From Daedaleopsis sinensis (lineage: Eukaryota > Basidiomycota > Agaricomycetes > Polyporales > Polyporaceae), in assembly GCA_033807695.1 (NCBI GenBank), contig CM066308.1, positions 496,001-560,000 on the forward strand: a stretch of DNA of 64,000 nucleotides. Direction: 5' to 3'. The notes under the pieces were generated by a model that saw only the letters and a program-made list of their open reading frames with translations, had not been told where the DNA came from and did not search any database. Shown here piece by piece: positions 5,071-37,301 of the stretch. Position 1 is the first letter of the stretch. Each line of letters begins with the position of its first letter. A program made the translations under genes and the position numbers.

Positions 5071-5092
5071 CCGATTCTTTAGTGGAATCGGA
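5071..5092 (-). repeat. 5' terminal hairpin of Helentron A
   Basis: Inverted repeat CCGATTC / GAATCGG with a 7-nt loop exactly at the element's 5' end. The same layout (CGATTC, short loop, GAATCG) occurs at the 5' end of Helentron B at 21998-22016, so it is probably a family-conserved terminal signal. Confidence 0.7.
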
Positions 5093-5162
5093 ATGGGCCA
5101 TCGCGCAAACACATCTTTTCTCTCTACCACCACCATCTCTGTCCCCCGAAATTACTACGAAC
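5093..5162 (+). promoter_or_regulatory. GH15 leader/promoter remnant of U1 (cut by Helentron A)
   Basis: Seventy bases of the leader common to all GH15 copies (pyrimidine-rich TCTCTACCACCACCATC stretch) remain between the Helentron A 5' end and the start codon. The rest of the upstream region present in the other units is displaced. A few substitutions and insertions distinguish it from the other copies. Confidence 0.6.
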
Positions 5163-7671: not shown

Positions 7672-7676
7672 GCGTA
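7672..7676. repeat. Target-site duplication GCGTA (left)
   Basis: Five-base direct repeat flanking the LTR retrotransposon, matched by 16659-16663. The uninterrupted site is visible at 39966-39970, 47893-47897 and 55837-55841 in the other units. Confidence 0.95.
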
Positions 7677-8023
7677 TGTGAGAAATCCGAGTCTTTCGGC
7701 GATGTCGAGAGTCGTGAGACGTCGAGAGGGTCGTCGAGTGAGTCGGAAAACACGGTAGAGTTGGCAGACACGAAACTGAGTGAGTAAAGTCGTATCTTGA
7801 ACTCTGAAGTCTCGTCGATAGTAGATACATAGGTTTATATACGGAAGACGAGACGGCTTTTGAAACGAGTAGGAGTAGTGAAACAAGAAGTCTACGAGTG
7901 AGAAAAGAAAAGATTGAAGTGAAACGAGACACGAGCGGGAAGCTCGTGTGGTGGGGAGCTTACGGGCGGCAACGACCGCTTAGTCATGTCTGAAAGTGGC
8001 AGGTCAGACGCCCGTGCCTTACA
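7677..8023 (-). repeat. 3' LTR of the gypsy element
   Basis: 347 bp, TG...CA ends on both strands (TGTGAG...TTACA as read on plus). Identical by eye to 16312-16658. A palindromic GGACTCC/GGAGTCC and a purine-rich stretch (minus strand) lie just inside it at 8024-8062, the polypurine-tract position. Confidence 0.93.
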
Positions 8024-8086
8024 TTCGCCCTCCAGGACTCCAGTATGGAGTCCTACTCACCGGCGTATGACAGCCCCCGTTTTTAT

Positions 8087-16264: not shown

Positions 16265-16311
16265 TCCGTTGTGTTAGTAAACAGATACGAGAGGAAATAG
16301 CACTCAAAAAA

Positions 16312-16658
16312 TGTGAGAAATCCGAGTCTTTCGGCGATGTCGAGAGTCGTGAGACGTCGAGAGGGTCGTCGAGTGAGTCGGAAAACACGGTAGAGTTGGC
16401 AGACACGAAACTGAGTGAGTAAAGTCGTATCTTGAACTCTGAAGTCTCGTCGATAGTAGATACATAGGTTTATATACGGAAGACGAGACGGCTTTTGAAA
16501 CGAGTAGGAGTAGTGAAACAAGAAGTCTACGAGTGAGAAAAGAAAAGATTGAAGTGAAACGAGACACGAGCGGGAAGCTCGTGTGGTGGGGAGCTTACGG
16601 GCGGCAACGACCGCTTAGTCATGTCTGAAAGTGGCAGGTCAGACGCCCGTGCCTTACA
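16312..16658 (-). repeat. 5' LTR of the gypsy element
   Basis: Same 347 bp as 7677-8023. It is the promoter-side LTR for the minus-strand gag-pol. A TATATA-containing AT-rich patch (about 16462-16480) is the likely core-promoter position. Confidence 0.93.
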
Positions 16659-16663
16659 GCGTA
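16659..16663. repeat. Target-site duplication GCGTA (right)
   Basis: Pairs with 7672-7676. Host spacer resumes with tgactcagcc exactly as in units 2-4. Confidence 0.95.
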
Positions 16664-19600
16664 TGACTCAGCCACTCGCTCGAGGGGCGTGCTGACAGCT
16701 GTACTACAGAGCGTTGAGTGCTCTACACGGAGACAGAAGTCTGTGATGGCCGCATACCTCAGTTTATGCGCACAACGACCGCAAGTATCCTGCCACTCGA
16801 GTCGGGCTTCGCCGTCCGCGTCAGGCTCGGCCATCCGCCTCGATCTCGCCGCGCGCCCCAGACCGTTCAAAACGCGACGACAGAGTCCGCGCTACGGGCC
16901 GGGCCTCTCGAGTGGCTGCCACTGGCAGCGACGACCGCCGGAGGGCTGCGAGGAGAACCGTGAGCCACGACGGATGATAGGGAAACGTGCGGAAGCAGCT
17001 CACCTTCTGGCGACGAGAATCGGACTCCCCCCAGCCAGCGAGAAACGACGCGGCACGAGCAGCATGCCGCCACAAGGACGACTCGGATGTGCTCCGGGTG
17101 ACGCAGCCAGTCCTGCCAGGGCCGTCAACGTACGACCGTCCGCCGGCGACGCGTGCTCCGCACACGAGGAGCAGTGGGAACGGCGAGATGCGCGAGCAGT
17201 CTTCCGCATCCGACGTCTTCTCTGCACATCCTCAACTTTGACGATGGCCAGAAGCCAGAGATCTCACCTGTACGTGCAGAGTGGCCGGAGAGACGGGCAG
17301 CGGTCCACGAAAGACTGATGCAACCCTATAGATGTTCGCGTGAGGATCTCGAGTCAGCAGGACGAGGGACATGCACGTACACTGCACAAGGTCGGAACAG
17401 TGCACCGCCGGGCGGAGTGCAGTTGCGTGCACGCTGCACACGCTCGGATTCCGAGCGTCGATCCGTGGAGGGCTCGATGAGTCCACCGGATATTTGCTTG
17501 CTCGCCGTGTAAGCACCTGCGAGTTTGTGGAGATATGGACGAGCTCATCTGAATCTGCAGAACAATCTTCGCCGCCGGAGATACACACGGCCACCACGGG
17601 AGAATCAAGACAAGGATAGGTGCGGGGGACGATGCGTCAGCCGTCCGGAATGTATCCGCACTGAAGACCGGGTGAGCCGATGGAACACGCCTGATGACTC
17701 GTGGAGTATCCAGCTCACCAGATCCCCGCCAGATTGAGATGTAGGATGACGACCCGGGGGCCGTGCCGCCATGGAAGAGCACAGCTCGGATACACGGGAC
17801 GTCTTGCGGACGATCATGCAACGATGGCAGACGCGTCTGACGCGGAGCGACGTCTGAGCGACCGTGTACGCGGAGCGCAGCGCCCGGGACGTGCATTCTA
17901 CGCCAGTGGCTGCGAGGAAAGACGTGAGTGAGCGCCTCGTTTGAGCCGCGGAGGTATGCAGTGCTCACCTATGTGCCATGACATGCAGCTCCGAGTCGCC
18001 GTCCGCATACAGGTGGAGGTGTATCAGCGGCCGGCCATTGATGGGGAGTCGAGCCAGAGCTGGACAGACCCGCCAGACGGCAGCGGCGAGCACGACAGGG
18101 GAGCGGGAGGTGGCGACGCGTAGCACACCTCGTGTGATGGTTGGGGAGAGTGCCTCCGTGGACGAGTGCAGCTTGGATACACAGCGTGCTCTGCTGACCA
18201 TCATGCGGCGATTTCAGACGCGTCTGACGCGTCGCGCTCTCTGAGCGACCGTGTGCACGGCTCGCACTGCCCGAATGCGCATCTCTGTCGAGTCAAATGT
18301 GAGTGAACGCGTCGTTCGAGCGGAGGGATGTCGTGCTCACCTTTGTGCCAGCTCCGAGTCGCTGTCCGCGAAGAGGTGGAGGAGTAACCGCGGTCGGCCG
18401 CTGAGGGGGAGTGGAGCCACAGCTGGACGGGCCCGCCGGACGACGGCGGCGAGCACGACGGGGGAGCGGGAGGGGGGGACGCGTGTCCGAGTGGTTGGAG
18501 AGAGAGAGAGGCGGGCGCCGGGGCCAAGTGCGCGGCCTTCGAGCACCGGGAAGATGCGGACGCGAGGAATGCATGTCGACGTCTTGGGAAGGTCCCCGAG
18601 ATCCCGAGCTGCATGTTCAAAATGGAAATCTTCACTCATTCTCCGTCTGATGTCGGTGGGACGGCGAGCGCGGGTGAGCGTCGTTAGGCCGGCCGGCGAT
18701 TTCGGCCTTCCTCGATTGGGCAGTGCGTGTACTGAACGCCAGGTGTGATCGACTGCCGGTTTCGGCGCACTCGACCGTGCTTGTCCTCCCTGCCGTCTGC
18801 GCTGGCATGCGACAAGGGCGGCAGAGCATTGTATCGGCTATCTCTCATCCATCTGCGCTTCTACTGCTTACTTTCTCTGAACTCCGTGGCGAAAACGGTG
18901 AGTTTAGAGAGGGATAGGATAGTACATATTGATGAAATTTTCAGATGACGAACACCTGGGAATGTCAGGGACAATTTGCAGTTCGGCTCCGGTCATGAAG
19001 ATATCGGAGGTTCTGCCAGCGGTTTCTAGGGACCGCTTTCCCAGGTCCAGACTCGAGAAGATGTGGGCTGCGACTCCACCCGTTTCTGCCGTTTGTTCGT
19101 TCCGCTTCGTCCTCTCACTGGGTTCATGCTGATGCTACAGTATCCAGGTCATATGCGCTCATCACGGAGCCATTCACAGAGGGAATATGCGCAGTGTGTC
19201 CGTAGATCTCCGTGTCGCTCCAATGACAATGAGCATGCATCCGAAGAGCGTACTCAGACGGTCCAGGCCGGCGAAAACTTTCAGGCATGGAAGCATCTGC
19301 CGTGCGACAGGCCAGACCCGCTCCTCCGTGTGCACACTCTATCGTCGAGGTGATATGTTCTCAGTCCGCTCTCGCACTCACTCACTGGATCTCACCGCAC
19401 TCGTGCTCGCATTCAGACAAACATACGGGTCGGAAACCGCGCTGTATTCGTGCTAGATACATACAGACAGCCCGCCGAAGTGCGAACGCACGACAGCCCG
19501 GGCACGCCACCGCGATCCCCGCCTGCCGCTGGGCGGTGGCGAGCCCGGAGTCCAGACATCCGAGGCGCACGGTGCATGCTGCGGCAGCGTCTGGTTGGCT

Positions 19601-19795
19601 GACCACCCGACGTCCATTCCTCGCCCCGAGCGCGCACGCACGGGCCAGCGGCCATCCCGGCGAGCGGGGTCGTGACCTGCGCGTGCGAATGTGAGCGCAG
19701 CGGGCGGGCGGGGTATAAGGCCTGTCTCGGGGGAATGCGCACTGCAGAGTCGCGCACTCGCAGGCCTGCACCCCCCGCTCCTCGCCCTCCACTCC

Positions 19796-19845
19796 TCGCC
19801 CCTCGCCCGTCGCCCGTCGCCCGTCGCCCGTCGCCCGTCGCCCCT
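19796..19845. repeat. 7-bp minisatellite (ccgtcgc) U1
   Basis: Tandem CGTCGCC-type heptamers flanked by related CCTCGCC copies. The corresponding tracts are 43031-43075 (U2), 50975-51019 (U3) and 58919-58963 (U4). Confidence 0.85.
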
Positions 19846-21360
19846 CACTCTCCAGCACTCTGCCGTGCGCCTGCCCGTCGTCGGATGCGCGATATGCACT
19901 CGGGGCGTGCGAGATGCGTCGGTACGCCATGTCCCTCGTGTGCTGGGACGCTGCTGACGAGAGCGACAGACAGATGGCCGGGCGACGTGCTCGTCGGCGT
20001 GCGCATGTCCAGGAGAGCGAGTCGTCGGCGTGCGCATGTCCAGGAGGGTACGCACGCTCTGTCGGGATCTGTCGGTACGGCTGGCAACTGACATCAGCTT
20101 GTTCTGCTTCACAGAGACCAGAACAACACGCACGTACTGTGGAAGGTAAGTACGGCCGACGGGGATCGATGTGGCTGGCGCACTCACCCGGACCGTTGTA
20201 GGCCAAGCCGGACACAACATCCCTGGTACCGGTGAGCCCGCCCTTGTCCCCGCTTGCGCTGGCGAAGCTGACAGTTCGTTCTGTCGACAGTCCATCATGT
20301 CGCTGTGCGCGTACACACGTGGGATGGCTGCACCGTAGCGGATGAGTACGTGTGTATCACACTTTGATTGACTCACCACGGCTCACGCTTTTTCCACAGA
20401 CTCGGACGAGACCGCGTGCGCGCAGGCCACGGATGAGGCATGCCACTACTCACACTCGCGATCGCGCACACCGGCAGCGGCGCCGTCAAGTAGCGCGGCG
20501 ATCGCAGGAACGACGTGCGCGGTCTGCGCAGCACATCCGCGCATCCGCGACGTCGGGCACATGCACAGCGGACGGACTATGGTACATACAAGTTCAGTTC
20601 GTGACCATATGCGTGGTACTTACCTTGGTGTCTGACAGAACCCTAGCGGTCACGGCGGCAGCGCTGCGGAGGCACTCGGCCGTCTGGGACGGACGGCCCT
20701 TGTCAGCATAGTAGACGGTACGTCGTGCTCGTCGGCGTGCACACGTCGAGAAGAGCGAGGTACGCACGCTCTGCCGGGGTCTGTCGGTGTGGCCGGCGAC
20801 TGACATCAGCTTGTTCCCCTCGCAGAGACCATCGGAGCAGCGGGCGCGTACCGTGGAAGGTGAGCACGGCCGGCGGGGATCGATGTCGCTGGCGGACTGA
20901 CACGGACCGTTGCAGGCTGGCGCGAGGTCGAGCTCGACATGACGTCTTGGTACCGGTGAGCCCGCCCTTTTCCTCGCGTGCGCGGGCGGAGCTGACGGAC
21001 TGTTCCGCCCGTCAGGTCGCTGCGCGCGTATGAGGAGTGCACCATAGCAGATGAGTACGTGGGTATCACACTCGGATTGACTCACCACGGCTCACGCGAT
21101 CTCCGTAGATTCGGACTAAACCGCATGCGCGCCGGCCGCGGACGAGGCGTGCTGCGAACTCACCATCGTGCACGGCGCCGGCAGCGGTGTCGGTCGGATC
21201 CGCGACGATGGCGGGGACGTCGCCGCCCGCCTGTGCGTGATCCGGCCGCACGTTCTCGCGCTCGCGACGTCGGTCGGATGCGCAGTGAACGTACTACGGT
21301 ACGCACAAGTTCAGTTCGCGACGATATGCGTGGTGCTTACCTTGCTCTCTCACAGAACCC

Positions 21361-21888
21361 TCACGGTCGCGGCGGCGGCAGGCACTTGGCCATCCGTGGC
21401 GCGCGACGGGCGGCGCACGACGGGCGGCGCTTGTCAGCATAGTAGACGGCGGGATCGGGGTAGATACCGTAGTAGTCGCGCGGCGGGACGTTCATGATCA
21501 GGCTAGGTGGGTCGAGCGGGACGGATCGGACGGCAGGCGCAGAGGGCGGGCGATGTTCGTGGAGAACGGAGGCAGGCGCAGAGGGAGAGACGGGGAGGAG
21601 CAGACGAGTGCGGTGTCCAGGCGCAGACCCGGTCGACTGTATGCGGCGCAGGGGAGAGAACGGGCCGGGCGGCGTTGCGGGGACGTCGAGGGAGAGGAGA
21701 GAGGAAGGACTGAGATCTGAGATCTGAGATCTGACCGTCCTGTAAGCTGCGTGCGGCGACTGAAAGCGACGGATATATGCGTCCCTCATGCTCTTGGTGC
21801 GAAGGACAGCGGCGAGCGAGGGCTCCAGATCGGTGAGGCCTGGGCGCAGAGTGGCGACCGCAGAGCGGCGACCGCAGAGTGGCGACAA
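21361..21888 (-). other. 175-codon open frame in the U1 spacer, significance uncertain
   Basis: Reads continuously in U1 from a Met at 21888 through a Ser/Pro-rich stretch to a segment containing N-V-P-P-R-D-Y-Y-G and V-Y-Y-A-D-K. In units 2-4 the frame is shifted by two extra copies (28 bp) of a 14-bp repeat. The second half (Y-Y-A-D-K.RPS) is repeated in the neighbouring ~630-bp module. No family recognised. It could be a relic exon or chance in GC-rich DNA. Confidence 0.25.
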
Positions 21889-21995
21889 GAGGGACTCCAG
21901 GGCGACGCGAGACGGACGGTCAACGGGACGGTAGAGCGCAACGAACGAGAACGGAGGTCAAGCGCGCTCCGCGGCCCGTGGAGCCACGATCACAT

Positions 21996-22016
21996 TGCGA
22001 TTCCACTTGTGAATCG
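21996..22016 (+). repeat. 5' terminal inverted repeat and hairpin of Helentron B
   Basis: TGCGATTCCAC is the inverted complement of 36221-36231. It also forms a small hairpin (CGATTC...GAATCG), as at the 5' end of Helentron A. Confidence 0.75.
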
Positions 22017-22019
22017 GTA

Positions 22020-22230
22020 AGTCTTCTTGTTTCCGCCTGCGTACATCACGTGCTTCACCGTGTCACCCGGCTTCACCCGTCTTCCGTATTCTCCCGCGCT
22101 ATCCCCTTCGTTTGTGTGTTACCCGCTCCTATCCGCTTCCTTCTTCCTCCCTCATCGTACTTTCCGTCCCCGTGTGCTTCTATCCTTTTCGTGCTTTCAT
22201 CCCCGCTTCCGCTACTGGTTGCCTGTGTGC
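22020..22230 (+). promoter_or_regulatory. Pyrimidine-rich leader of the Helentron B transposase
   Basis: About 210 bp of C/T-rich sequence between the 5' terminus and the proposed start codons. No TATA box is obvious. It reads open in one frame only because TAA/TAG/TGA are rare in it. The in-frame Met further upstream (21879) lies in host spacer and is not the real start. Confidence 0.5.
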
Positions 22231-25200
22231 ATGATGGACTTACACTGTATGTGTTTGTTACTGCTCTTTCTGGCCTCTGTACTGATTCTCACATAGGCTC
22301 CGCCCCTATCAACGTTCGTCGCGCCCACCTCGTGCACTACGGTGTATGTGCTGGTTCGCTGCCTCCTTGGGAGTTCCACGCTCAGTTTCTACGTTGTGTT
22401 CGCGCTCGGGACGCTGCTGTTGCATGCGGCGCCGACGACACCTTCGTTGCGGCTCGGGCTCCATTGCCTGTCGCCCTGTCAGGCAACGCCGCTGCAGTTC
22501 GTGGTACAGCCGCTTTGCACGGTATTACACTTTGTCGTGATACTCGTCGTTCAATCAAATCTGTGAAGGATTTGCTCTGCGCACACGTATGTACTCCTTC
22601 TTGTGCGGACATCGTTTCCCTCTTCCGGCTTCGGCGCACGTCTCCCCCTATGTTGGGGGGGGCCGTCCCTTTGCGAAATCCGTTTCCCCCTCCGGTTCTG
22701 CCTATCGCAGATCGCCGCGCTATTGTGAAAGACTGGTGCGACGCTACCTCTCTGGACGCATTGACGGAGCACGCGTGCGGAGTGTGTGCCCGTCTGTGTA
22801 TCCGGCGCGATTTGAACTTCGTACCGCAGTCCACGCTGGATCTTACTCCCTTGGACCGGGCAGGGGATGGCGTCACCCGGAAGTTCCGCATGACTGCTGC
22901 TGATCCCGTGCAGGAGATCGCTGGGCCGGTGTTGTACGAAGGCGGCACTGCGGTCGTCGACAGCGTTGACATGCTCTACGCTTGTAATCCTTGTATCAAC
23001 GCGTTACGCTCACATCGTCTCCCTCGTCATTCGCTCGCGAACGGCCGCTGGGTCGGTGCTGTTCCTGCAGTCCTCGCGAACCTCAGCTACGTCGAACAGC
23101 TCATGATCGCTCGTTTTCGACATAGTTTTTGTGTCGCTCAAGTGTCGTTAGGTCAGAGGTACATGTGCGCCAACGTCATCGTCTTTGGTCAACCGTTGGG
23201 GAAGGTGTATGATGTGTTGCCTCCTCCCAAACAGGACATCGAGGAGACCCTTGCGATCTTGTTCATTGGCGCGTCCAAACCCAGCGACAACGACGTCCGC
23301 CGTACCCCTTTTTTAGTGCGGCACCCCGCCATCGTGTATTCTTTGGAGTGTCTTAAGCTGAACAGTATCACCTACAAAGACGTCCGGATCTCCCGCGAAA
23401 ATCTGTCTGAATATCCTGAAGACACGCCTCCGGTTCATGTGTCTTACATCGAAGGGCGTGATGGGGCACCTCCCGAGTCCTTAGCGTCCTATGAGCTCGC
23501 CTCTGACCGTGGTGTTACTAGTGGAGAGTGCGCGTTTGTTGTTCACTCTCTGTCCGCGGCTGAATTAGTCGATATGAGCTACGATGCTAAAATTGCATAT
23601 GCTATTCGTTACTTTGAGGGTGGTGGTAAGGTCCTCGCCTACGGGCATGATGGGCGTCCGCAATCCGTTTACCACAACCCAGAACTGTTCCCGGGTATGT
23701 TTCCGTGGCTGTATCCGTATGGTCTAGGTGGTTTTGACAACGCTCGCATGCTCGTGCGCCTCGATCATATCGCACACGTTCGCGCGAACCTGCATTTCGC
23801 TGATCGCCGATTTCAGACTGATCGTTGCTATCCGTTCATAGTTTTTAACCAACGGCAGATTCGGTCTTCGGCCCAGGGTGGCTACCTTCTTACAACTAAA
23901 GGCTACTTCGAGTCTGTCGCGGACAAGATCTTGAACGTGGACCGGGACGCGCTTGACGCTATTATTCGCCGGTCGGCTTCAGGCAAGCATGTCATGCCGC
24001 AGACTCCAGCCGAAAAGGAGTGTTTCGACTTGATATCCATCGTCGATCGTGTAGCAGGCCATGTCGATGGTTCCACCACTAGCCGTAAGTATCAGCGAAA
24101 CGAGATACGGTCCATGATATACACCAGGGGTGTACCTGTTTTTTTCATAACGTTTGCGCCGGCGGACTTCAAGAACCCACTCTGTCTGTTTTATTGCGGA
24201 GAGAGCGTAGATTTGGCAGCTCATTCGCCCGCCATTCGGTCGTCGAATGCACGCTTACGTGCCATCGCGTCTAATCCGGTCGGCGCTGCTCGTTTCTTTC
24301 ACCTCATGGTGACAACATTTATTCGCGTGGTACTGCGTTCTCACACCGGTCGGCCCGGTCTGTTTGGGGAGACCGACACATACTATGGCACCGTTGAATC
24401 TCAGGGTCGAATGACGCTTCACCTTCATCTCTTGTTGTGGATCAAGGACGCTGTAAGTCCGCAAGAACTTCGTGACCGAATACTGTCCGACCCCTCGTTT
24501 GAGGCGGACCTTGTCGATTGGCTGGAGAGTTGCCACACGGGGGATTACGGTGTCTCTGCGGAAAACAGTTTGCATGAACGCTTCGAAGAGGAGTACACCG
24601 AGTGCAGAGCTGGTGAGATTCGGACTCGTACACGTCTGCGAACTGGCGTGAGAGATCCTGCCACGACTCTACCCCGTCTGCCTGACGACATCTCGCGCGA
24701 CGACCTGCAGTGGTATGCTGCCGTGCGATCCGAAGCGGACGAGATTGTGTTCATGTCCAATCGCCACGACCGTAACCACGGTAAGGGCTGCTGGAGGGGA
24801 ACGCCTCCCGGATATTGTCGCGCTCGCTTCCCGCGCGAATTATATCCCAACACTGTAGTGGACCGTGCCAGTGGAGCCATCAGGTTTGCGAAACACAATC
24901 AGTGGCTGAATACTTACCATCCGCTGCTCAGTTACGTATTGCGGTGCAATTCCGACGTCACCTGCTTGCTATCTGGAACTCAAGTTCGAGCCGTCATAGC
25001 GTATGTGACAGATTATGTCACCAAGAGCAAGTTGACTACCGAAGTCTTCTTTGACACAGTACGCACTGTTCTCAACCGGAACCGCGACACGATCTCAGAA
25101 TCTTCTCCCGGCAGTGGTGAGCTTGCACGCTCACTGGTGGTTAAGATGGTGAACGCGTTGTCTGCTTCGATGGAAACTGGCGGCCCTGCGGCGTGCGCAT

Positions 25201-28200
25201 ATCTGTTAGGAAATCCAGATCACTACACAGACCTCACATTTCGAACGTTTTACTGGTTTGCCTACTGTAAACATGCGAAACGTACATCGGTTTATGCTGA
25301 GCCTGTTGCGGGCATTGAGTCTGAACCGGTACTAATCGCGTCTTCGCCTACTGGTGTTGTGCAGCTCAATAAGGTCGCGGATTACACCTATCGGCCACGT
25401 CGGTATGAAGACTGGACCCTGTACGACTACTTGACTTCCACCGATGTCGTCCGCGCGCGAACGCGCGCCGGCCGCGTTCACAGTGCACCTTCTGTGTCTG
25501 GTGATGCATCGGATACGTCAGAGACCGAACACGAATCCGACGCCGAGGCTGACTCCGGGTTCGAGGGCCCTGTCTGTCCAGATGGAGCCCACCGTTTTTT
25601 GAGTGGGCACGTGCAGCGAACCACACACGTCGTCCGTCAGCGGCCTGCTCTCAATCTATACACCCTGAATTTCATCGGTGGGAGCTTACCTCGACCGGAT
25701 AAAGGTGACTTAGAGGAATATTGCTTCACGATGCTTGTCCTGTTCAAACCGGGAGGTTGGAGGTCTGGACTTGACCTCTGTGACTCCAGTCAGCGGTGGA
25801 GCGATGTGTTCAACGCTACTGTGTTTTCAGACTGCCATCGACAGGTGATGAAGAACATGAACGTACTATACGAGTGCTTGGACGCTCGGGACGATTTCGC
25901 AGCCCAAAGGCGGTCTGTTGTCGACGCTACTCTCCTTGGCAGTTCCCCTCTGACTGAAGACGACATGCAGGATGTGGACGACGGTGCTGCCCTCTTAGAC
26001 TATGGAGCCTGTGAGCGCACGGAAGACGATTTGGCTGATGTCCTGGACGACGGTGCACCCGGTCCCAAAACTGCTAACCATCGAAGAGAAGTTGACCGGA
26101 TCCAAGATCTACTCACCGGTGGTCTAAGCTCTGCTCCTTCTCCAGCTGTCGGAAACACGGCGCAGTCTCGGTGTCCCGGTATACCTGCGCGCTCTGCAAG
26201 TCAGTGGAAGTCATTGGTGGACCACGCGCGGAACGTAATCTTGCAGAATTTACGGGGTCATAGTGCTGATCTGCAGCTCGATTCTGTACACGGTTTTGAT
26301 GAGCACCGCGATCAACACGCACCGTCATCCCGCGCATCCGCTCTCGTTGCTACGTTGTCCATCGTGGATCTGGAGGCATGGTACCAGCCGGCCGGTCCGT
26401 CCGTGGTAGACCGTTCGCTTCAGGACACCAATATCCTGCTCGTCCACACCGTCATCGCAAAGTTCACGATGAACACCGAACAGCGGCGCGCGTTCATGGT
26501 AGCTGCCGTTCATCTGCACCACCATGAGAAGAAGCCGTTACGCATGTATCTCGGTGGCATGGGAGGGACCGGCAAAAGCCGTGTTCTCCTGGCGTTAATA
26601 GACTTCCTCCGTGCACGTGAGGAGTCTCACCGGTTCATGATCCTCGGCCCTACTGGTTCCAGTGCAGCTTTAATTGGTGGTTCCACATATCACTCTGTGC
26701 TTGGCTATTCACCTTCTTCCTACGGGGGCAAAGTATCCTTGAAGCAACTGGAGAAGATCAGGGTTCGGTTTGGACGAGTGGACCTCATATTCATCGACGA
26801 GGTCTCCATGATCTCTTGCCTGGCGTTGTTCTTCATCCATTCCCAGTTGACCAAGGCGTTCGGAGATCCCACTGTTAGCTTCGGTGGTAAGAGCTTGATC
26901 CTCGCTGGTGACTTCGCGCAGCTACCTCCGCCCGGAACTGCTCCAGCATTGTACAGTGGCTCCGTTGGTAGATGGTCGTCTTCTTCCAACGACTACCATC
27001 AGAAATGTGCGATTGGAAAGGCACTGTGGCAGTCGTTCACGGTTGTCATAATCCTTCGAGTGAACATGCGCCAGCGCGGTATGTCTGCGGATGATGTGAA
27101 GTTTCGGGTGGCATTGGAAAACATGCGCTACTGCCAGTGCACAGCAGCGGATATCGCGCTTCTACGCACTCGGGTATGTCGTCCGAGACGAGGTGACAAC
27201 GCACACCTCACTGACGTGTTCAAGTCCACGTCCGTAATTACCGCGCGGAACTCGCACAGAGACGGTATAAACGCCCTGGGAGTCCGGCGGTTCGCCGCTG
27301 ATAACGGTGTTCCTTTGTTTCGTTTCCACTCCGTGGACCGCTGGGGGAGGAACAAAGACAGCGACTCTGTGCGGAAAGCTCAGCGAGTGTATGACTCTGT
27401 TGTGGACCCCCTTCGGTCCTCGAACACCATCCCTGTGCGCCTACAACATGTTCTATGGGGCATTCCCCCTGCTTTGACAGAACATCATGCTGGCATTCTC
27501 GAACTATGCAAGGGCATGCCGGTCATCTTGAAATACAACGAGGCTACCGAGCTCTGCGCCACTAACGGCGCTGTTGGTACTGTGCATGATTGGACCTCGC
27601 GATTCGTACACGGGAGGTTGGTGTTGGACACGCTGTTCGTCGAGTTAGACAACCCTCCCCGACCGGTGCAATTGGACGGACTTCCAGCAAATGTTATCCC
27701 GTTAGGGAAGCTAAAGCGTAGCGTGCGATGTGTGCTGCCTGTAGACGACATGGTGGTGTCAGTACAACGTGAACAACTAACCGTGCTTCCTAACTTTTCT
27801 ATGTCTGACTTCGCGTGTCAGGGGCGTACGTTGGCTCATAACTCGGTGTATTTGAAGTATTGCCGCAATCATCAATCAATATACACTTGTTTATCTCGCA
27901 GCTCTTGTTTGAAGAACACAGTTATATTGGACGACATCGACCCAGGTAAGTTGCAAGGAGGAGCCGAGTCCGGACTTCGTAGAGAGTTCCGCGAACTTGA
28001 AATACTCGACGACATCACGCGCATGCGCTTGGGGAACTTTTCCTCTTCCATGCCGGATTTCACAACGCGCGGTCCCATGTTAGAATGGTATATGTCTGTG
28101 AAAGGGAAGCGCTTCGTTCCGGACTGTGTCCCTGCAGCCATCGACTGGTCTAATGCTGCAGACCATGAATTGGTGCCGTCTGACTGCGGATCGCCTCAGT

Positions 28201-29198
28201 CGCTGATGCCTTCGGACACTACCCTGCCGCCGCTCCCTTCGAAACGCGCACCTCCTGCCGGTGATTGGGGATCTCGCTCAAAGCGGAGGCGAGTGCAAAA
28301 TTCTCTGGCTGAACCCGACCGGGCGGCGTACGACGTTAACCCCGTTGTCCCCGCGGCAACACCGTCATCGCTCCGGATTGGTACCGTGTGGGACCCCGTA
28401 GACCACAGCTGTGCATATGACGCGTTATGCACGGTGCTCTGGAACTTGTTCGCCGATCACCCTCCAGAGTGGGCAAGCACTGTGCTGCCGTCGAATCCGT
28501 TGTTCGGGCTATTCACCAGCCAATTGGCAGACATCCGTGCTCAGCCTGACATTCTGGACCGTGTAAGAGACTCCATTCGGGATGTGGTGAGCATCATAGA
28601 CCCCGTCGCATTTCCTCGACGCGGAGCAGGTGGTGCGGATTTCACTGAACTTTGTCGGCTGTTTCTGAACTCACCAGCAGGGTTCGGTACTGCATTTGGT
28701 ACATGCACCGGCTGCGTTGGAGAGCCCCGACACACTCCAGACATCGGAATGAGCTGCATGTGGACGGTGACCGACGACATTGGATCTATCCCGCCGTCTA
28801 TGTCAGTTCAGGATTTTGTGGATAACATGCTACAGCGTCGTTACCACATACCTTGCGCTGTGTGCACACGGCCTATCGACGCTGAACTCCGACTACGCGC
28901 TCGCGGGCCAGTGGTAGTTTGCATCCATTGTCCTTCCCCCTCTCAGCTTCGCGCGAGTGACGTGATCACGCTGAACATCGAACTCGAACGCGTCACTTGG
29001 CGATTGTGCGGTGTGGTGTATTATGGAGACGGCCATTACACGTGCAGATACATCGATAGAGAAGGTGCATGTTCGTACCACGATGGCATAGTGACCGCTC
29101 GGAGATGTGTACCGGAACCACATCCACCTACTGCCACGTTTCTTCACTCCGCTCGTGGTCGCTTGGCTAAGTACTTCTTCTACGTGCGCGCCGACTGA
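22231..29198 (+). CDS. Helitron Rep/PIF1-helicase transposase with C-terminal protease-like domain
   Basis: Proposed gene: exon 1 at 22231-22246 (ATG ATG GAC...), intron 22247-22296 (GTATGT...ACATAG), exon 2 at 22297-29198, about 2305 aa, uninterrupted. Approximate residues: DUF6570-like Cys-rich region 150-360 (C-G-V-C-A-R-L-C, Y-A-C-N-P-C); Helitron_like_N/Rep about 510-910 with F-A-P-A-D-F, HUH motif L-H-L-H-L-L (about 713) and the tyrosine motif Y-V-T-D-Y-V-T-K (about 906); PIF1 5'-3' helicase with Walker A G-G-M-G-G-T-G-K-S (about 1424), Walker B F-I-D-E-V-S (about 1503), A-G-D-F-A-Q-L-P (about 1543), N-M-R-Q (about 1594), C-Q-G-R-T (about 1846) and T-C-L-S-R (about 1868). The last 270 residues have a Cys box (D-H-S-C-A-Y-D-A-L, about 2043) and a His box (G-D-G-H-Y-T-C, about 2251), as in USP/OTU-type cysteine peptidases. 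That peptidase assignment is inferred from motif layout only. Confidence 0.92.
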
Positions 29199-29672
29199 GG
29201 AATGGTCAGCCCGGCCTTCCTCATCGTTCTGAAGAAGTGTTCAGTCACCAAACTACTCATCCACTCGTTGATCACGCACCTTCTAATGACCTTCAACGCC
29301 GCCCTCTTGTCTTCGCGTCTCATGTTCACGAAACGCGTCCCGACACAGCTCTGCTTCATAACCATAGCTTCGCCTTCCCAACCGTTTGCGGCAGAAGGGT
29401 GGACGATGTGCACCGTGTACGCTCGCCATTTCGGGCCAACGGCTACGTCCCGAGCACATCCGGTGCCCACGAAATGTAATCCGCGCACGCTGAACGTAGC
29501 AGTGGTGATGGGCACGTCTGTCCCCCCCCCGTCCTCGTACCGGTGGATAATGACTTGCGTGAACTTGCAGCCGCCCGTGATGGGGATCACCAACGCGCGG
29601 ATCGGCACAGTCTATCGTAGTTAGCTCGTGGTTCGGGATGGTAGACGGGTGCGAACTCACTGTGTATGCCAT
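29180..29672 (-). CDS. Helentron cargo gene 1, unknown protein (147 aa)
   Basis: Exon 1 at 29672-29661 encodes only Met-Ala-Tyr-Thr. The intron 29660-29612 (GTGAGT donor, CTAAC branch, GATAG acceptor) splices in phase to exon 2 at 29611-29180, giving 147 aa. A TATATAAAC box (29711-29719, minus) lies 40 bp upstream. The product has alternating hydrophobic/polar strands (F-T-Q-V-I-I-H, A-T-F-S-V-R-G-L) followed by a basic helical C-terminus. It is convergent with the transposase gene and the two stop regions overlap by 19 bp. No family recognised. Confidence 0.65.
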
Positions 29673-29710
29673 GGTCGCTGCGATTACTCGGACACTATTT
29701 TTCAGCACAC

Positions 29711-29719
29711 GTTTATATA
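29711..29719 (-). promoter_or_regulatory. TATA box of cargo gene 1
   Basis: TATATAAAC on the minus strand, about 40 bp from the start codon. Confidence 0.5.
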
Positions 29720-29865
29720 CCACCACTGCCTGTCGCTCGAGGTCCTCGGTCCGCGGACTTCAGCATGTGCATTTGCATCCGCCTGGTTCCGCACCTGTTG
29801 TCCGCCGTCGCGGCAGCATCCGCTCGCTGTCGGTGACATCTACGCGGTTTTAACCTGGGCTGCGG

Positions 29866-29872
29866 TATAAAC
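29866..29872 (+). promoter_or_regulatory. TATA box of cargo gene 2
   Basis: TATAAAC 55 bp upstream of the ATG at 29927, within the 254-bp divergent promoter shared with cargo gene 1. Confidence 0.5.
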
Positions 29873-29926
29873 AACGTCACTGGCCCGCTCCCCTTCGGAT
29901 TCTGCACCCCCAACAGCCCTGCACAC

Positions 29927-30674
29927 ATGTCAGCCACTATCCGCCGTTCTATGCTGTTCATCTCAGGCCCAGTTGGTACCTCCCGAATGCAACTGCTCGC
30001 GTACCTCGTGTTTACCCACGGAGTGAACATATGTTGGATATACTGCTCCCCTGGCAGGAGCGCAGATGTCGAGCTCTACCTGCTGTCGGACACAGTGAGC
30101 TTCTCGTTTTCTACCACGGGCATTTCACTCATCCGCTTCCAGCCAATGTTGTCGATGTATGTGCAGCCGACCGTCCATGTCCTGCCGGTGAGCGTTCAGT
30201 GCAGTTCGTCCACGACTGTACTCACCGCGCCCGCAGTCCGCCACCATGATCTCTGTCACTGTTGAACACGTGCGCAGGGGGGCGAGCCATGGCCATATCG
30301 TTGTGCTCACCTGTGCTGCATCAATCCTCTCTGCCATAAATCACGCCGCTCTGAGTACGCACCACGCTCAACCTGTGCACCACTTCTTCTTCGTACGCGG
30401 TGCCCCTTCTGCCCCCCACATCGCGTTACTTCTGCACCGCTCGGAACCGGTTTGTGCGACTGAGGGGTACGTGATGTTGTAGTAACCGTTGTCATTTACA
30501 ACTCTGTAGTAGTACAGTATTGTCCTGAATGACTACGTACCGTTCACAGCTGTACTTGACATATTGGATACGATCCGCGCAAACACTGGTGGAAAACTCC
30601 ATGAAGAACATGTGGGTTGGTGGCTGGCATACGCTATCACACCTGGCATGGTACTGAACGGGTGTGGGCGCTGA
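29927..30674 (+). CDS. Helentron cargo gene 2, putative OB-fold-like family member (215 aa)
   Basis: Proposed exons 29927-30187, 30237-30466 and 30518-30674. Both introns are GT-AG (GTGAGC...CCGCAG; GTACGT...TACAG) and keep the frame, giving 215 aa ending in N-G-C-G-R. The middle exon has H-G-H-I-V-V-L-T (about 105-112) followed by a F-F-F-V strand, resembling the G-[DH]-x-[IVL] signature of cargo genes 3-6. It is the least certain of the set for family membership. Divergent from cargo gene 1 and convergent with cargo gene 3. Confidence 0.55.
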
Positions 30675-30977
30675 ACATGTGCGCCTGTCCTGAATGGCAC
30701 GTGAACCGTCTCTGCCGCCACCCATTCCCTTTCCATCTGGCCACCTCCACGCACCCCATCCACTTCTGTTATCTCTCCGTCACCGTCGTCACACACAGTG
30801 TCTGCTTCACAATGCGTTGATCTCACTGCAGCTTTCACGTACAACGTCGCACGGCTCCAGGTTTTCATTACGGCCACAATCTCGACCACGACATGGAGAC
30901 AGACACATAGCTGCAGATGCGCAAACGTGCCCCTTCATAACAGACATCATCTACGTAAGCTGCTCAACCCATCTTCT
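30675..30977. other. Intergenic, between convergent cargo genes 2 and 3
   Basis: About 300 bp of 3' flanking sequence. No coding content, repeat or promoter recognised. Confidence 0.5.
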
Positions 30978-32077
30978 TCACTCTTGGAGCATCGAGTCGT
31001 CCTGCTCGGTATTGCCGTTCAACATTCCGAACTCAAACTTGGAGGGTACCGCAATCTTGGACAAGTCGAACGCGCCTTCCCCATGTGGGACAGATCCGTG
31101 GTTCTGTACGGTCTGCACATCTCAGTACTCTGTTCAGGAGGTTCAACTCTACACTCACCTTCAGCTGTTGCGCCGTCTGCAGTCTCACCACCTCTTCGGG
31201 GCAGAGGAAGACCTCGGTCCTACGACCGCTTCGCCCCCGCATGCTTACGACCTCCACCACTACCAACACGTCCACCAGGTCTCCACGACGTATGGCCATC
31301 GTCGGAAGCGAACTGATTCCTCCTGAAGTAGTCCGCGTGCCCGCTTTGATGCGATGAGATACCACCCAATCTGTCGCTATCTTTGCTGCGCGTCCCGCGG
31401 GATCATCTTGCTTGGAGACCGGGATGGATGTGGGGTTTCCAGTTGCTCGTACCTGAAATCGGTGAGTGTTGTCGGTGGTGTTGCACTAGCAGTGTGCGCT
31501 CACCTTCGTAAACACTCTCCTCTGCATCTTAATGTTACTGTCGGCGGGGTGAGGATAGGATGGTGTCGTATTGACCATGTTGCTGATGATCTCCTTCAGA
31601 TTGTCGACTCCCAGCTTCTGCGGCCTGAACGCCGTATGGTGCACCCCTCCCGAAAGCGTGATCCACTGGGTCGCCTTCGCGGCATCGTCCGCCAACCTGA
31701 TCCACATCAGCAGCGCCCACGTTGAACAAGTCACCACACACCCTGTCCAATTTCCAAGTGCGTTGATCTTGATATCGGCGACGACGCCTTGAATGCGGAG
31801 GGTGAACGTCACCGTTTCGCCTTCAGCTTCGAGGTCGGGGTGGCACAGGACCACGTTGCGGTTTGTGGCCGCCGATCTGTCTATACCGATGCGCTCGCAC
31901 AACGACTCGTAGTCTGTCTCCAACACCCGCCAAGCTGGGACATCCTCAACGTTCGGTTTCAATACGCCCACGCCTCCGGGCCACAGCGCGCGGCACTGGA
32001 CTTGGTTAACTACTCCATCGTTAGCCGCATCCGGACTGTGCGTATGCTGTGGCATGCGTACCTGCAAAGAATGCCAT
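30978..32077 (-). CDS. Helentron cargo gene 3, putative OB-fold-like family member (316 aa)
   Basis: Four exons join in phase: 32077-32062 (M-A-F-F-A), 32009-31504, 31452-31159 and 31112-30978. All introns are GT-AG (donors GTACGC, GTGAGC, GTGAGT). The 506-nt second exon is an open, compositionally coding-like frame (L-E-A-E-G-E-T-V-T-F-T-L, W-I-R-L-A-D). Exon 3 carries I-R-R-G-D-L-V-D-V-L-V-V-V-E (about 228-241), the clearest form of the shared signature. The C-terminus is acidic. The start exon of only 16 nt mirrors cargo gene 1 and the transposase. No database family recognised. Confidence 0.68.
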
Positions 32078-32472
32078 GTGAGCGGTGGTTATGTTCGGTC
32101 GAGTCCTGCAGGCGTGATGTTTTTCAGTCCGGCGCTGTGCGTCCTTTTTGACCAAGGTCTGCGGCTGACATTGTGAGCTGCATAGATTGTCAGCCCAGGA
32201 GATGCCGCATGCGGCATCGTCTGCTGCACTTGCTGTACGTTGCATCCGATGGTGTATGTGGTCAGCATGCGCTAACATCCGCGCTTCCGCGGTCTTAACC
32301 ACAATGTCCGTGGCTCCGCCCGGGCTCGGTCGGGCCAGCCATGCAGTCTAGACCTATGCGGCTGACGACCGGATGCAACTTCACCCGCCTTGAGTACTCC
32401 CTCTGTGTGGGGGGACGCGTACTTAAACTGCGATGCCCCATGCGCTAGTGTTCCACATCGATCCAGCCCGCC
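32078..32472. promoter_or_regulatory. Divergent promoter region between cargo genes 3 and 4
   Basis: 395 bp separating two oppositely oriented start codons. A TTAAAC element lies at about 32425, before cargo gene 4. No canonical TATA box on the gene 3 side. No coding content. Confidence 0.45.
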
Positions 32473-33676
32473 ATGTCTACCTCAGCCCACAGTCGTCGCT
32501 CCACACGCTCTACTGAAAAGCAGTCGACTCACCCGGACACCCCCGCCGCCGCACTCGCACCTTCCAGTGACGAACCCGGCGTGGGCACCAGCGTCAACAC
32601 CGGCAAGCACAGCCTTGAAATCGACTACGAAACACCCGCACAGCCCGCGGAGAAACGGACTCGCACGTCGGTCCGCTCTGTGAACGATGACACTCCCGAG
32701 TTCGTTGACAACGGAACCGAGTCCACACTGTGCGTGCTTCCTCCTGGGTTAGAACCACCACTGACTGTGCGCAGATCCAACCACTCCAGCACGGTCAGCG
32801 TGCGGGCGACTTCTCCCGCACCCGTTCTTGACAACAACCACCACCCACTGTTTGAAGGAGTAGACCATATTCCTGTCGCTACTTTGCAGTACGTTCCGTG
32901 TTCTAATCGTTGTCGGGCCTGCAGCTTACGGGTGAACTGTGTTCAGGCGCAGTATCGACTTCGTCTCCAAGTCGTGCGGCACTACACGCCGTTACGGGGT
33001 GTCCCGCGTGCCTGCCACCGCTCGATGGGGCACGCGGTACGACACCGAACGCTATCTGTGCGATGGAGCCAACAACAAGATCACCATATGGCTGGTGGGT
33101 GTTGTCAAACACGCGTGGTTCGCGAATGGTGACGGCGTGCTCGCACGTCGGATCAACCTCTCTCTCCGACTGCCATACATCGGAGACACAGCTGCGCTCC
33201 AGCGGCTGTACAACTTCGCGCGTCCAGTCCCAGGTCGGTGGAGTGGCACATCAGTCGTCTGTTAGTCTCTGACTTCGTCGCCAGCGGTCCTGCCTGATGT
33301 GGCATTCGCTAGCCGTTTCCAAACCCGGCGTGTGAAAGGAGCAACGGAAGACAAGGTACGCATCACGAATCCTCTGTGGTATTGCCCCACTAACGTTCTC
33401 CAGGCGTACGAGTTCGAGAAGATTTACGACGCCACTGAGAAGTTCAAATCGAAGTCCGACATGGTCAAGCTGCACTACTCCAGGGTTGGCAAAGGGGATT
33501 ACATCCTCTGCGAAGCGTTCCTGAACCGGTACAAAACAGGCGGTGACCGGAACGCGTGGACGAACTGGAACGTCTCGCTAGAGATGAATGAGATCTCAGT
33601 CATATACGAAGCGCCGGATGGTTTCGTAGACGACACTGACGAACAGCCATCTGTAGATTTCGACGACGACTTGTAG
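32473..33676 (+). CDS. Helentron cargo gene 4, putative OB-fold-like family member (348 aa)
   Basis: Exons 32473-32888, 32947-33233, 33285-33355 and 33404-33676, all GT-AG, reading frame kept through every junction. The N-terminal ~130 residues are Ser/Thr/Pro-rich and probably disordered, with a basic E-K-R-T-R patch that could be a nuclear localisation signal. The body has two strand-rich modules: K-I-T-I-W-L-V-G-V-V (first) and G-K-G-D-Y-I-L-C-E-A-F (about 287-297) followed by W-N-V-S-L-E-M, and an acidic tail D-F-D-D-D-L. This two-module pattern recurs in cargo genes 5 and 6. Single-stranded-DNA binding is an inference from this layout and from plant Helitrons that carry RPA-like genes. 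Confidence 0.72.
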
Positions 33677-34001
33677 ACCGCACCTTTCGCCGACTGCTGC
33701 CTTGTTGCCCCTGTACAACCACCATCCCCCTCACTTCCACTCCGTTCCCTTCTCTACTACTGCGACTCGGCCTTAAACATATAAACCCCTACTGCTACTC
33801 GCTCGGTCATGTATCCCTTCATGTCCAATGTAATGTGTTCCGAATGCCCGCTACATATCCCAATTGCTTGCGCTCTTTCGTCCGCACTTACCGGTTGCTC
33901 CTTTTTGACACCCTATCTGTCATTGACTTAGGGCGGACGCTGCCGACTTCTTCCGCTCCCCGATGGCCCACGTATAAAACCCCATCCCCCCAACCCCCGC
34001 C
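33677..34001 (+). promoter_or_regulatory. Intergenic/promoter region of cargo gene 5
   Basis: Contains two TATA-like boxes: ATATAAAC at about 33779 and TATAAAAC at 33973-33980. The second is 22-29 bp before the ATG at 34002. Pyrimidine-rich elsewhere, no gene seen. Confidence 0.5.
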
Positions 34002-34833
34002 ATGTCTTCCACTCCCAAGTTACAACGCCGTCGAAAGTCTGCCATGGACGACATCTATCCGCCCGAGGCCTTCCTCGCCGTCCCAGATCCTATGGAACTG
34101 GATTCAGACGACATCATCGACGAGCACACCCTTGTGGTTACCGCTGCCACATCCCCCGAATACGTCCGGTGCGCATTCCACTGTCGCTTCGTTTGCTACC
34201 TCTAACCGTTTCATTAGCCGTCTGCACCGTATTGTGACCTCTGTCATCCCTAAGATCGACGGTGTGACGATTTCCGCAGTGCCCTCAAACGCGAACTGGG
34301 GTCATCGTGGCTTCAACCTGCTGCTCTCCGTGAACAACGACGCCCTTCCGATTTTCGTCGTCGGCATGATACGTCGCGCGGAAACTGTGCAAGACGACGA
34401 TCCACGTCCTAAAGCAGAAATAGACCTGGAGCTCGTGCGCGGAATTGATCATCAGGCGATGGTCGCGCTCTTGAAGCGGTCCAGCCCTGAACCCTGTGCG
34501 TAATCCAAACGTCGCTGTACATGGTGCTGACCTTCCTCTCAGCACGATTCCCGGATATGTTGACCGCTACAAAATACATGGACCCCGTTCGACCGGTGCG
34601 TATTCCGTACGACCGTCCGCTGCTCACTATCTCATTCAATGCAGGTGTATCCTCATGTATTCAAAGCCGACGGCCGCATTCGGCCGAAGGAGGATATGAA
34701 CACGTTGTCTTTCGCGTACCTACACGAACACCAGCACGTGTTGCTCGAACTGCGTCTCGCCCGCCGTCTCCACTCGCGTGGCCGGTACACGACCTACTTT
34801 CAGTTGAACAGTGCGGTGTACATCACTGGTTGA
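34002..34833 (+). CDS. Helentron cargo gene 5, putative OB-fold-like family member (228 aa)
   Basis: Exons 34002-34168, 34218-34495, 34543-34595 and 34645-34833. Donors are all GTGCGC/GTGCGT and acceptors ATTAG, CTCAG, TGCAG; the frame is kept. The N-terminus is short, basic then acidic (L-Q-R-R-R-K; M-E-L-D-S-D-D). First module A-L-P-I-F-V-V-G-M-I, second module E-H-Q-H-V-L-L-E-L-R-L (about 194-204) ending in F-Q-L-N-S-A-V-Y-I. Same order as gene 4, which supports a common origin. No catalytic motif seen. Confidence 0.7.
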
Positions 34834-35471
34834 ACAACCCCGCCCACCGCCCCTCGCACACCGTGCCCTGTATCTTGTCCTGCCTTTAGTTTCTGCGCCA
34901 ATGTAACGCTTCCGTCTATGCCAACTCTGCAGCCGTGTACCCCTTCACTCAGGGGGGTGAATGAACGTCATCGCGTCTGCCGTCGTTTGTGTTTGCTTTC
35001 GACCGAACCGTGCTACCACACGAATATGACTGATGACGAACAACAGACCATCTCCCCTTTGCCAGCTCGCGATCCAGTCGGACGTTGATGTGTTCCATGT
35101 CGTTCCCGAGCCCACTGCTGCTTTGATCGCTGCTCCTGTTTCTCGGCCGACCCACAGCTCACACGCTCTCGATCTCCCCTATTAACCCTCTCCCTCTCTG
35201 TCCCTGCCTGTCGGCTGGTCGTGAACGGCATTACTTCAGCCCGCTTTTCCGCTCGCTCCTCGTGCACTCAATCACTCCCCAGCTGGTCTTGTCGTCGATC
35301 ATAAGCTCCGGGTCGAAAGATCGTTGCGGCTACGATCGGTGCCGACGCCGTCGGTCATCCCTATACCCACTCCGTTCCCTCCGCTTCCGCCGCGCACGCC
35401 GGCACGGAACTTGTCACACCTCCTGTACACTCACTTTATCCCCCTCGCAACCAGTGTCGCTCTCACTCGCC
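34834..35471 (+). promoter_or_regulatory. Intergenic/leader region before cargo gene 6
   Basis: About 640 bp, C/T-rich in its second half. No recognisable gene, no clear TATA box. Could hold a degenerate copy of a cargo exon, but none could be aligned by eye. Confidence 0.4.
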
Positions 35472-36115
35472 ATGACTTCCCCCTCCAACACCGACGGTGA
35501 ACATCGGCGGGCTCTGCAGTAAGTGTAGCCTCTCCTCACCACAACGACCGTTCTCACTGTTCTCAGCACACTACGCTCCATGGTCCACACCGCTCACGAC
35601 GGCCACGTACTTCGCACACTCTCCAACATCTGTCCGCAGCCCACTTGGGCCGGGGTCCACGACCACCTCATGCATGAAGGCGGTCGGCCAGTGCTCATCT
35701 ACATCCCAGCTATAGTCACGAAACCGCCGGCAATCCTGAGCGTTCCGCAACCTCACTTTGTGCTCGAGGTGCAGCCGGGCTGGGTAGAAGACCGCATGCG
35801 TCTGGTGGAGCTGGCAGTGCAGTTTAACATCGCTCTCGGTCCGTGTCTGTCATCTCTCTCACTGGCTGCATGCCAACCGCGCATGCTACGTTCACAGGCG
35901 CCGACAACACGTTGCTCGCGAAGACCGTTCTTACCAAGTCCGGCCGAGTACAGACGATGTACGCCTCTTCCGCACATGGTCCTCCCACTATCATCGACTA
36001 CAGCAGCGTACACGTCGGTCACATCGTCCTTCTGGAGTGTTGCCTTGTCCGCAAATTGGGCGCTGCCAAATTCCACTTCCGCTCGTTGACGTTGATGGTG
36101 AACCACGAACGGTGA
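35472..36115 (+). CDS. Helentron cargo gene 6, putative OB-fold-like family member (178 aa)
   Basis: Exons 35472-35518, 35567-35838 and 35898-36115, with GT-AG introns (GTAAGT...CTCAG; GTCCGT...CACAG) in phase. First module P-V-L-I-Y-I-P-A-I-V, then H-F-V-L-E-V; second module H-V-G-H-I-V-L-L-E-C (about 145-154) followed by F-H-F-R-S-L-T-L-M-V at the C-terminus. Shorter N-terminus than gene 4. Last cargo gene before the 3' inverted repeat. Confidence 0.7.
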
Positions 36116-36220
36116 TCGCTCCGAACCCTACACTGTGTCTATACGCAATTGTACACTTCGTGATGGTTTCGGTTACTACATATCTCAATATCCGAAACTT
36201 GTACGACCTCTAAGGCAGGT

Positions 36221-36231
36221 GTGGAATCGCA
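36221..36231 (+). repeat. 3' inverted repeat of Helentron B
   Basis: GTGGAATCGCA, perfect 11-bp inverted complement of 21996-22006. Positioned inside the 3' end with a GC-rich tail after it. Confidence 0.7.
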
Positions 36232-36257
36232 TGTGGCGGGCGCAGCCTCGCGTTCTA

Positions 36258-37288
36258 CATCTGGAAAAACCTCCCTTGCAAATTTGCAATAATGTGTGCA
36301 AGTGTTACACATTTTGCGCATGTGTCAAACTTGTACATATTTGCAAGGTGGTCCAACTATATTAGTATAACTAGTAGAAAAAGTGTACTAATCCAGAGCA
36401 ATATATTGACAAACCTTTTATCAATTTGCAGCATCATCACATCCTGCTCTTACTCTTAGACCTCTTAAACACTCTAAAAGTGGGGTTAGATGGTGAATTC
36501 AATGGTCAAGAATGAGGTATTGCCCCGGGTAGAGCAGGGAAAAATGCGAAATAAAAATGAACCCACCAGGATTTGAACCCTGGACATTACTGGCCTCATC
36601 ACCTGACCACTGCATCCAACCACTACTCCATATGACCTTGATATTTCAAGGAGATACATCGCAGATATACCACTCCTGCATGGACTTAGATGTTTTTACT
36701 CAAACTTACCTCCGGAAAGACTGCTGTGCTCTGTAGCCAAATGGCTGTATACAGTATACTCTTTTGATCTACAGTCCACTCTACAATATATGTGCTCAGG
36801 ATTATGTTTAAATCAGCTATAGCTCACATTAGCAGTAGAGCACAAGGGTTTTTCGGGAGGTGAGCTTGAGTAAAAACATCTAAGTCCATGAAGAAGTGGT
36901 ATATATGCGATGTATCTCCTTGAAATATCAAGGTCATATGGAGTAGTGGTTGGATGCAGTGGTCAGGTGATGAGGCCAGTAATGTCCAGGGTTCAAATCC
37001 TGGTGGGTTCATTTTTATTTCGCATTTTTCCCTGCTCTACCCGGGGCAATACCTCATTCTTGACCATTGAATTCACCTTTTAAGAGGTTTCAGAGCATGA
37101 GGAGGGTCTACTCATGGCACCACTCATACCACATTGCTACTATTATGGTGAAATTGTACCACAAATTAGTACCAATTTGTACTAGTATTTTGACCCCCCT
37201 AGATATATCTGACATATCTGACACTTATGCAATTTTTGCCATTGTAGTACAAATTATTGCAAATGTGCAAAGGAGGTTTTTCCAGATG
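36258..37288. mobile_element. Foldback element with tRNA-like arms nested in the Helentron B 3' tail
   Basis: 1031 bp, AT-rich against a GC-rich background. Outer ends CATCTGGAAAAACCTCC (36258) and its inverted copy ending at 37288. A long near-perfect inverted repeat at 36492-36716 versus 36852-37077, with a ~135-bp centre. Each arm contains a tRNA T-arm/B-box-like GGTTCAAATCC with a pairing CCAGG/CCTGG stem (right arm about 36987-37010, left arm in inverse). No transposase. The sequence between outer and inner repeats is only partly symmetric. The trinucleotide CTA is present on both sides, but out of register for a clean target duplication. Confidence 0.75.
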
Positions 37289-37301
37289 ACTACCCCCAAG
37301 T

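Follow-up and report, generated by a model that had tools for sequence, protein, structure and literature searches.

A Helitron2-like transposon of Daedaleopsis sinensis with a largely conserved cargo cassette, one product of which has a predicted single-stranded DNA-binding fold

The DNA studied here is a 64,000-nucleotide stretch of Daedaleopsis sinensis (the window; C9:496001-560000 in a 51.6-Mb genome of 24 contigs). It contains element B, a rolling-circle transposon with a long Rep/helicase open reading frame (ORF) and six cargo genes beside it, at 29180-36115 (Table 1).

Element B is Helitron2-like, as judged from its domain content and termini. A Pfam scan with expectation values (E) up to 1 found no endonuclease domain in the Rep/helicase ORF, in which the HLH motif lies at residues 591-593. 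The definition of a Helentron set out in the available part of PMC4067079 requires an AP (apurinic/apyrimidinic) endonuclease domain fused to Rep/helicase, and by it B would not count as a Helentron, the name used in the first-pass annotation of this DNA. It has two features expected of a Helitron2, namely an ORF that joins Rep to a PIF1-type helicase without an endonuclease, and an asymmetric terminal inverted repeat. The repeat, established for element B only, is the 11-bp sequence TGCGATTCCAC at 21996-22006, found inverted at 36221-36231; an 11-mer match arose in 3 of 200 shuffles. A 5' palindrome, CGATTC/GAATCG, is present in both B and copy A. By eye, the C-terminal part of the Rep ORF (28335-29195), where Pfam gives no match, resembles a ubiquitin-type cysteine protease, and carries the sequences SCAYDAL (Cys box by eye) and GDGHYTCRYID (His box by eye).

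Table 1. Element B, its Rep/helicase ORF and its cargo genes (window coordinates; aa, amino acids).
Feature	Span	Exons	Strand	Remarks
Helitron2-like element B	21994..36257		+	array interruption, 5' palindrome, inverted repeat
Rep/helicase ORF, 2182 aa	22650..29198		+	DUF6570, Helitron_like_N, PIF1 (Pfam)
Gene 1, 147 aa	29180..29672	29661-29672, 29180-29611	-	relatives in 4/4 sister regions
Gene 2, 168 aa (chosen model)	29927..30482	29927-30187, 30237-30482	+	one relative, in the C11 element
Gene 3, 311 aa	30978..32055	32055-31742, 31696-31504, 31452-31159, 31112-30978	-	sister comparison; last intron uncertain
Gene 4, 348 aa	32473..33676	32473-32888, 32947-33233, 33285-33355, 33404-33676	+	relatives in 4/4 regions; acidic C-terminal tail
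Gene 5, 228 aa	34002..34833	34002-34168, 34218-34495, 34543-34595, 34645-34833	+	relatives in 3/4 regions
Gene 6, 178 aa	35472..36115	35472-35518, 35567-35838, 35898-36115	+	one relative, in element A

All six cargo genes can be spliced into open frames through GT-AG introns, as first proposed, giving products of 147, 168, 311, 348, 228 and 178 residues. Four of the lengths originally given are reproduced, but the 215 residues given for gene 2 are not, and the 316 given for gene 3 need correction. That 316-residue model, one of 29 enumerated, reads through an in-frame intron of 45 nt (31697-31741). An intron following GNW[TN]G is found at the matching place in all four gene 3 relatives, and on the basis of this comparison gene 3 is corrected to 311 residues. 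Gene 2 is the weakest of the six models: 13 were enumerated, the longest of 171 residues, and the 168-residue model was kept. The end of gene 1 overlaps the Rep stop, tail to tail.

The cargo was compared with that of four sister regions, belonging to element A (C9) and to elements on C4, C2 and C11. Spliced alignment found genes 1, 3 and 4 in all four regions, in the same order and on the same strands as in B, and gene 5 in three. The C4 stretch yielded only a paralogue, gX, when searched with gene 5, and a probable gene 5 of C4 lies farther on, at 3946813. Core identity to B is 31-57% for these four genes. To within about one codon, both main introns of gene 3 agree in 4/4 regions, the first and third introns of gene 4 in 4/4 and its second in 3/4, and all three introns of gene 5 in 3/3. 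The gene 1 intron follows codon 4 in three regions and lies two codons later in the fourth. Since the spliced aligner rewards introns, this agreement is supporting rather than independent evidence. By the NG86 method, the nonsynonymous rate (dN) is below the synonymous rate (dS) in 29 of 29 computable pairs; dS is missing for 11 of 40 pairs and apparently saturated in others, and for this reason no more is taken from these values than that dN<dS.

For gene 2, the best of 24 region and strand scans was in the C11 region, with a score of 99 (maximum 84.5 in 200 shuffles), and the relative there has the same ATG and a matching intron; scores of 39-72.5 elsewhere are taken as noise. The gene 6 relative in element A scores 114.5 (maximum 73 in 200 shuffles). 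The sister elements also contain further paralogues not found in the cargo of B: gX in A, C4 and C11, and gY in A, C4 and C2.

Linkage to Rep was searched across this one genome with genes 1, 3 and 4, and with element A's version of gene 5. The genome has 72 Helitron_like_N places, 71 of them over the cut-off, and 5.1% of it lies within 20 kb of a Rep. Counting exon pieces singly, a Rep is found within this distance of 10/10 matches to gene 1, 20/20 to gene 4, 21/21 to gene 3 and 36/39 to gene 5. Co-occurrence with Helitron_like_N genes, proposed earlier as a check, is seen in this genome, with a few gene-5-like exceptions. A solo copy at C3:1010316-1011115 is apparently full-length, keeps all three introns and has no matching Rep beside it; it was scored as near a Rep because an oppositely directed one lies about 11 kb away, and it is either a non-autonomous element or a co-opted gene. 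There is also a decayed solo copy at C12:1941302, and two pieces (C3:3774247 and 3774584) lie about 32 kb from a Rep. DNA-level copies of the B cargo were found only in the window itself, although missing matches are no proof of rarity. At C11:2.43-2.55 Mb, seven Helitron_like_N places cluster as repeated, partly inverted copies of one element.

Genes 1, 3, 4 and 5 are thus real, conserved, under purifying selection and bound to the element. This bears on the idea that the cargo consists of captured host genes, carried as passengers in the way that is common in Helitrons. Capture of gene fragments is known (PMC4289320, in the part available), and the solo gene-5-like copy away from a matching Rep would fit. 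However, passengers would hardly keep the order and strands of genes 1, 3 and 4 in B and all four sister regions, nor show dN<dS, and the solo copies aside there are no matches off Helitrons among the genes searched (genes 2 and 6 were not). We consider capture very unlikely.

The cargo genes were also compared with one another. For gene 4, gene 5, gX and gY, hhalign probabilities are 97-99% in all five pairings other than gY with gX, which has 82%; gene 6 reaches 94% with gX, 81% with gene 5, 50% with gY and 13% with gene 4. In column-shuffle controls the scores of genes 4 and 5, genes 5 and 6, and gX and gene 6 were reached by 0 of 100 shuffles in each case. On these profile comparisons genes 4, 5 and 6 are one family with gX and gY. 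Their alignment (A1, 17 sequences) has an invariant W, D and R, as well as a first strand run that often ends in VG; a G-D/H-x-[IVL] run follows close to the end. Gene 3 with seven outside homologues gives a nominal probability of 26.7% against the whole family, where its score of 32.0 far exceeds those of 100 column shuffles (mean 11.8, maximum 18.3); the gene 3 profile against gX gives a nominal 44.5%, again with a score far over 100 column shuffles. A link of gene 3 to the family is likely, although not proven. For genes 1 and 2, no pairing reaches 6%. Of the original claim that at least four of the genes are related, the family of genes 4-6 stands, with gene 3 a likely addition; no such link is seen for gene 2.

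Homologues of gene 3 occur in Polyporus, Trametes and Grifola. One of them, P0003, is a UniRef entry named ceramide glucosyltransferase, a name that appears wrong. An AlphaFold2 model of another, P0002, is an oligonucleotide/oligosaccharide-binding (OB) fold β-barrel according to matches from Foldseek and VIA (predicted local distance difference test score, pLDDT, 69.4), and the nearest folds are those of replication single-stranded DNA-binding proteins (SSBs). The hallmark of SSBs of the T7 type is a long capping helix directly after strand β2 (PMC5686142). It is present in the model, where a strand (E108-114) is followed by a long helix (H119-139). Gene 3 is thus predicted to encode an OB-fold protein built like the SSB gp2.5 of phage T7.

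It had been suggested that the cargo might resemble the RPA-like genes, with an OB-fold, of plant Helitrons; animal Helentrons have such genes too. Helitron-borne SSBs of the RPA type are documented (PMC4683698, PMC4067079, as far as their available text goes), and the predicted OB-fold of the gene 3 homologue would agree with this, but Pfam RPA domains have no match in the six products (gene 4 taken as a 209-residue part and gene 3 as a 323-residue model) or in the members of A1-A3. The OB-fold part of the suggestion is supported by the model, the RPA part finds no support at the sequence level, and we regard RPA-like cargo as improbable. Another origin would be a large DNA virus or virus-like element from which the gene set was taken over, or B might be a hybrid of virus and Helitron. 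There are giant-virus proteins among the viral structural matches of the gene 3 model, and T7-like SSBs are described from four Nucleocytoviricota families in the available text of PMC10962738. Yet the scanned ORFs of element B have no capsid or polymerase domain, and identities to the 50 viral matches listed are 6-13%, too low for inferring descent. Viral ancestry seems to us the most improbable of the origins considered.

The structure 8erw, matched to gene 3 by phmmer (whole-sequence E 4.8e-5), was rejected: no stretch passes alone and it is absent from the profile search. Protein searches with gene 4 and with the superfamily A1 retained 0 of 696 and 0 of 5249 candidates, respectively, genes 1 and 2 being outside the search.

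On the basis of these observations, we propose that B, a rolling-circle transposon of Helitron2-like type, has long carried its accessory cassette, in which gene 3 is SSB-like, genes 4-6 are divergent paralogues of one another, and the function is protection of single-stranded DNA; we hold this to be somewhat better than an even chance. Nicking by Rep and unwinding by the helicase would generate a single-stranded intermediate, which the products of genes 3-6 might coat and protect. Genes 4, 5 and 6 probably share the fold of gene 3. The C-terminal tail of gene 4 is acidic in 5/5 elements and, by analogy with the SSB tail in phages, could dock replication or helicase partners; the last 20 residues of gene 3 are net acidic in 6/8 sequences. 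The most likely role of the cassette would be to supply single-stranded DNA-binding proteins for rolling-circle transposition, and the ssDNA-binding function first suggested as one possibility is in this sense partly supported.

Several observations weigh against this proposal. Compared with gene 4 or gene 5 alone, gene 3 scores no better than noise: 31 of 100 shuffles do as well in the first case and 72 in the second. Its model is of middling confidence and was made for a homologue; its TM-scores with 1je5_B, 0.33 by query and 0.49 by target, are low, and its matches in the viral library mostly have a large root mean square deviation. The structure predicted for gene 4 from a four-row alignment has a pLDDT of 37 and is unusable. 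Two of the eight gene 3 tails (P0003 and P0006) are basic. No SSB family was found by sequence with profiles A1, A2 and A3 in Pfam and the PDB, nor with A1 and A4 in PHROGs (best E 0.047, noise), and for this reason the gene 3 product is called SSB-like and not a family member. The evidence for purifying selection covers genes 1, 3, 4 and 5, and an SSB role leaves genes 1 and 2 unexplained.

Alternatively, the products could bind nucleic acids in the service of host interaction, in which case they would protect the element against silencing or against damage checkpoints instead of covering its transposition intermediate. The cargo is strongly divergent and its paralogues are expanded, and TET/JBP genes, regarded as anti-silencing, occur in other fungal Helitrons (PMC12730594, available part). 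Against this, the closest folds to the gene 3 model are replication SSBs, and gene 4 ends in an SSB-like acidic tail. We think this role unlikely.

Element B lies in an array of tandem 7944-bp units, which extends over 5092-21993 on its left and from 37296 to at least 62855. As array units on both flanks are broken off after 21993 and taken up again at 37296, B was inserted within the array, between these positions. Each unit has ORFs of 256 and 292 residues; an Rfam scan of the window, array included, found no family at gathering score. The left flank is itself broken by a retrotransposon with identical 348-bp long terminal repeats at 7676-8023 and 16311-16658. At the 3' end of B there is an inverted-repeat element, 36258-37288, which makes the exact 3' end of B uncertain; complementarity is 75% between its 77-nt arms and 95% between its 247-nt inner arms. 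The target site shows no clear TT.

Among known systems, Fusarium FoHeli is likewise a fungal Helitron2-like element with a Rep-Hel lacking the endonuclease and with a terminal inverted repeat, but it has one extra non-overlapping ORF, in FoHeli3 only, and no RPA-like gene according to the available text of PMC5148889. The Phytophthora proto-Helentron, to which B is likened by size and domains, is also about 14 kb and lacks the endonuclease, yet groups with Helentrons (PMC4067079, part available). In Pleurotus ostreatus, the available text of PMC4289320 describes HELPO1 (capA-capF) as having 1-4 Helitron-only genes downstream of RepHel, some without domains, and capB as adjoining RepHel in other basidiomycetes; capA, capA2, capB and capC have no domain assigned there and RPA is reported absent. 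This paper and PMC5148889, as far as available, are two fungal Helitron studies that report no RPA. The SSBs phage T7 gp2.5, Enc34 ORF6 and DUF2815 gave no sequence match in these searches, and B differs in being a eukaryotic transposon with spliced genes.

No report of phage- or giant-virus-type SSB genes in a Helitron was found in our searches of open-licence papers. The novelty would lie in the kind of SSB that this Helitron brings along, which differs in type from those known (it is predicted to be non-RPA) and is expanded. Tentatively, and with rather more doubt than confidence, we suggest that a fungal Helitron2 lineage encodes a multi-subunit coating system for single-stranded DNA, with at least four paralogous SSB subunits of the T7 or giant-virus type (genes 3-6), a non-RPA recruitment separate from the proposed RPA-type gains. 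If so, carrying an SSB would be a recurring need of Helitrons, met by different types of protein, and the cassette would offer genes that can be deleted, and proteins that can be purified, to probe the handling of single-stranded DNA in rolling-circle transposition. The SSBs known from Helitrons are RPA-type, gained at least three times independently according to the available text of PMC4683698 (see also PMC4067079). Plant Helitrons (PHRPA) and animal Helentrons (RPA) likewise carry their own single-stranded DNA-binding protein gene beside Rep/helicase, whereas in B this place is taken by gene 3, with its predicted T7-type fold, beside which stand a paralogue family of at least three members (genes 4-6) and a further two, unlinked genes.
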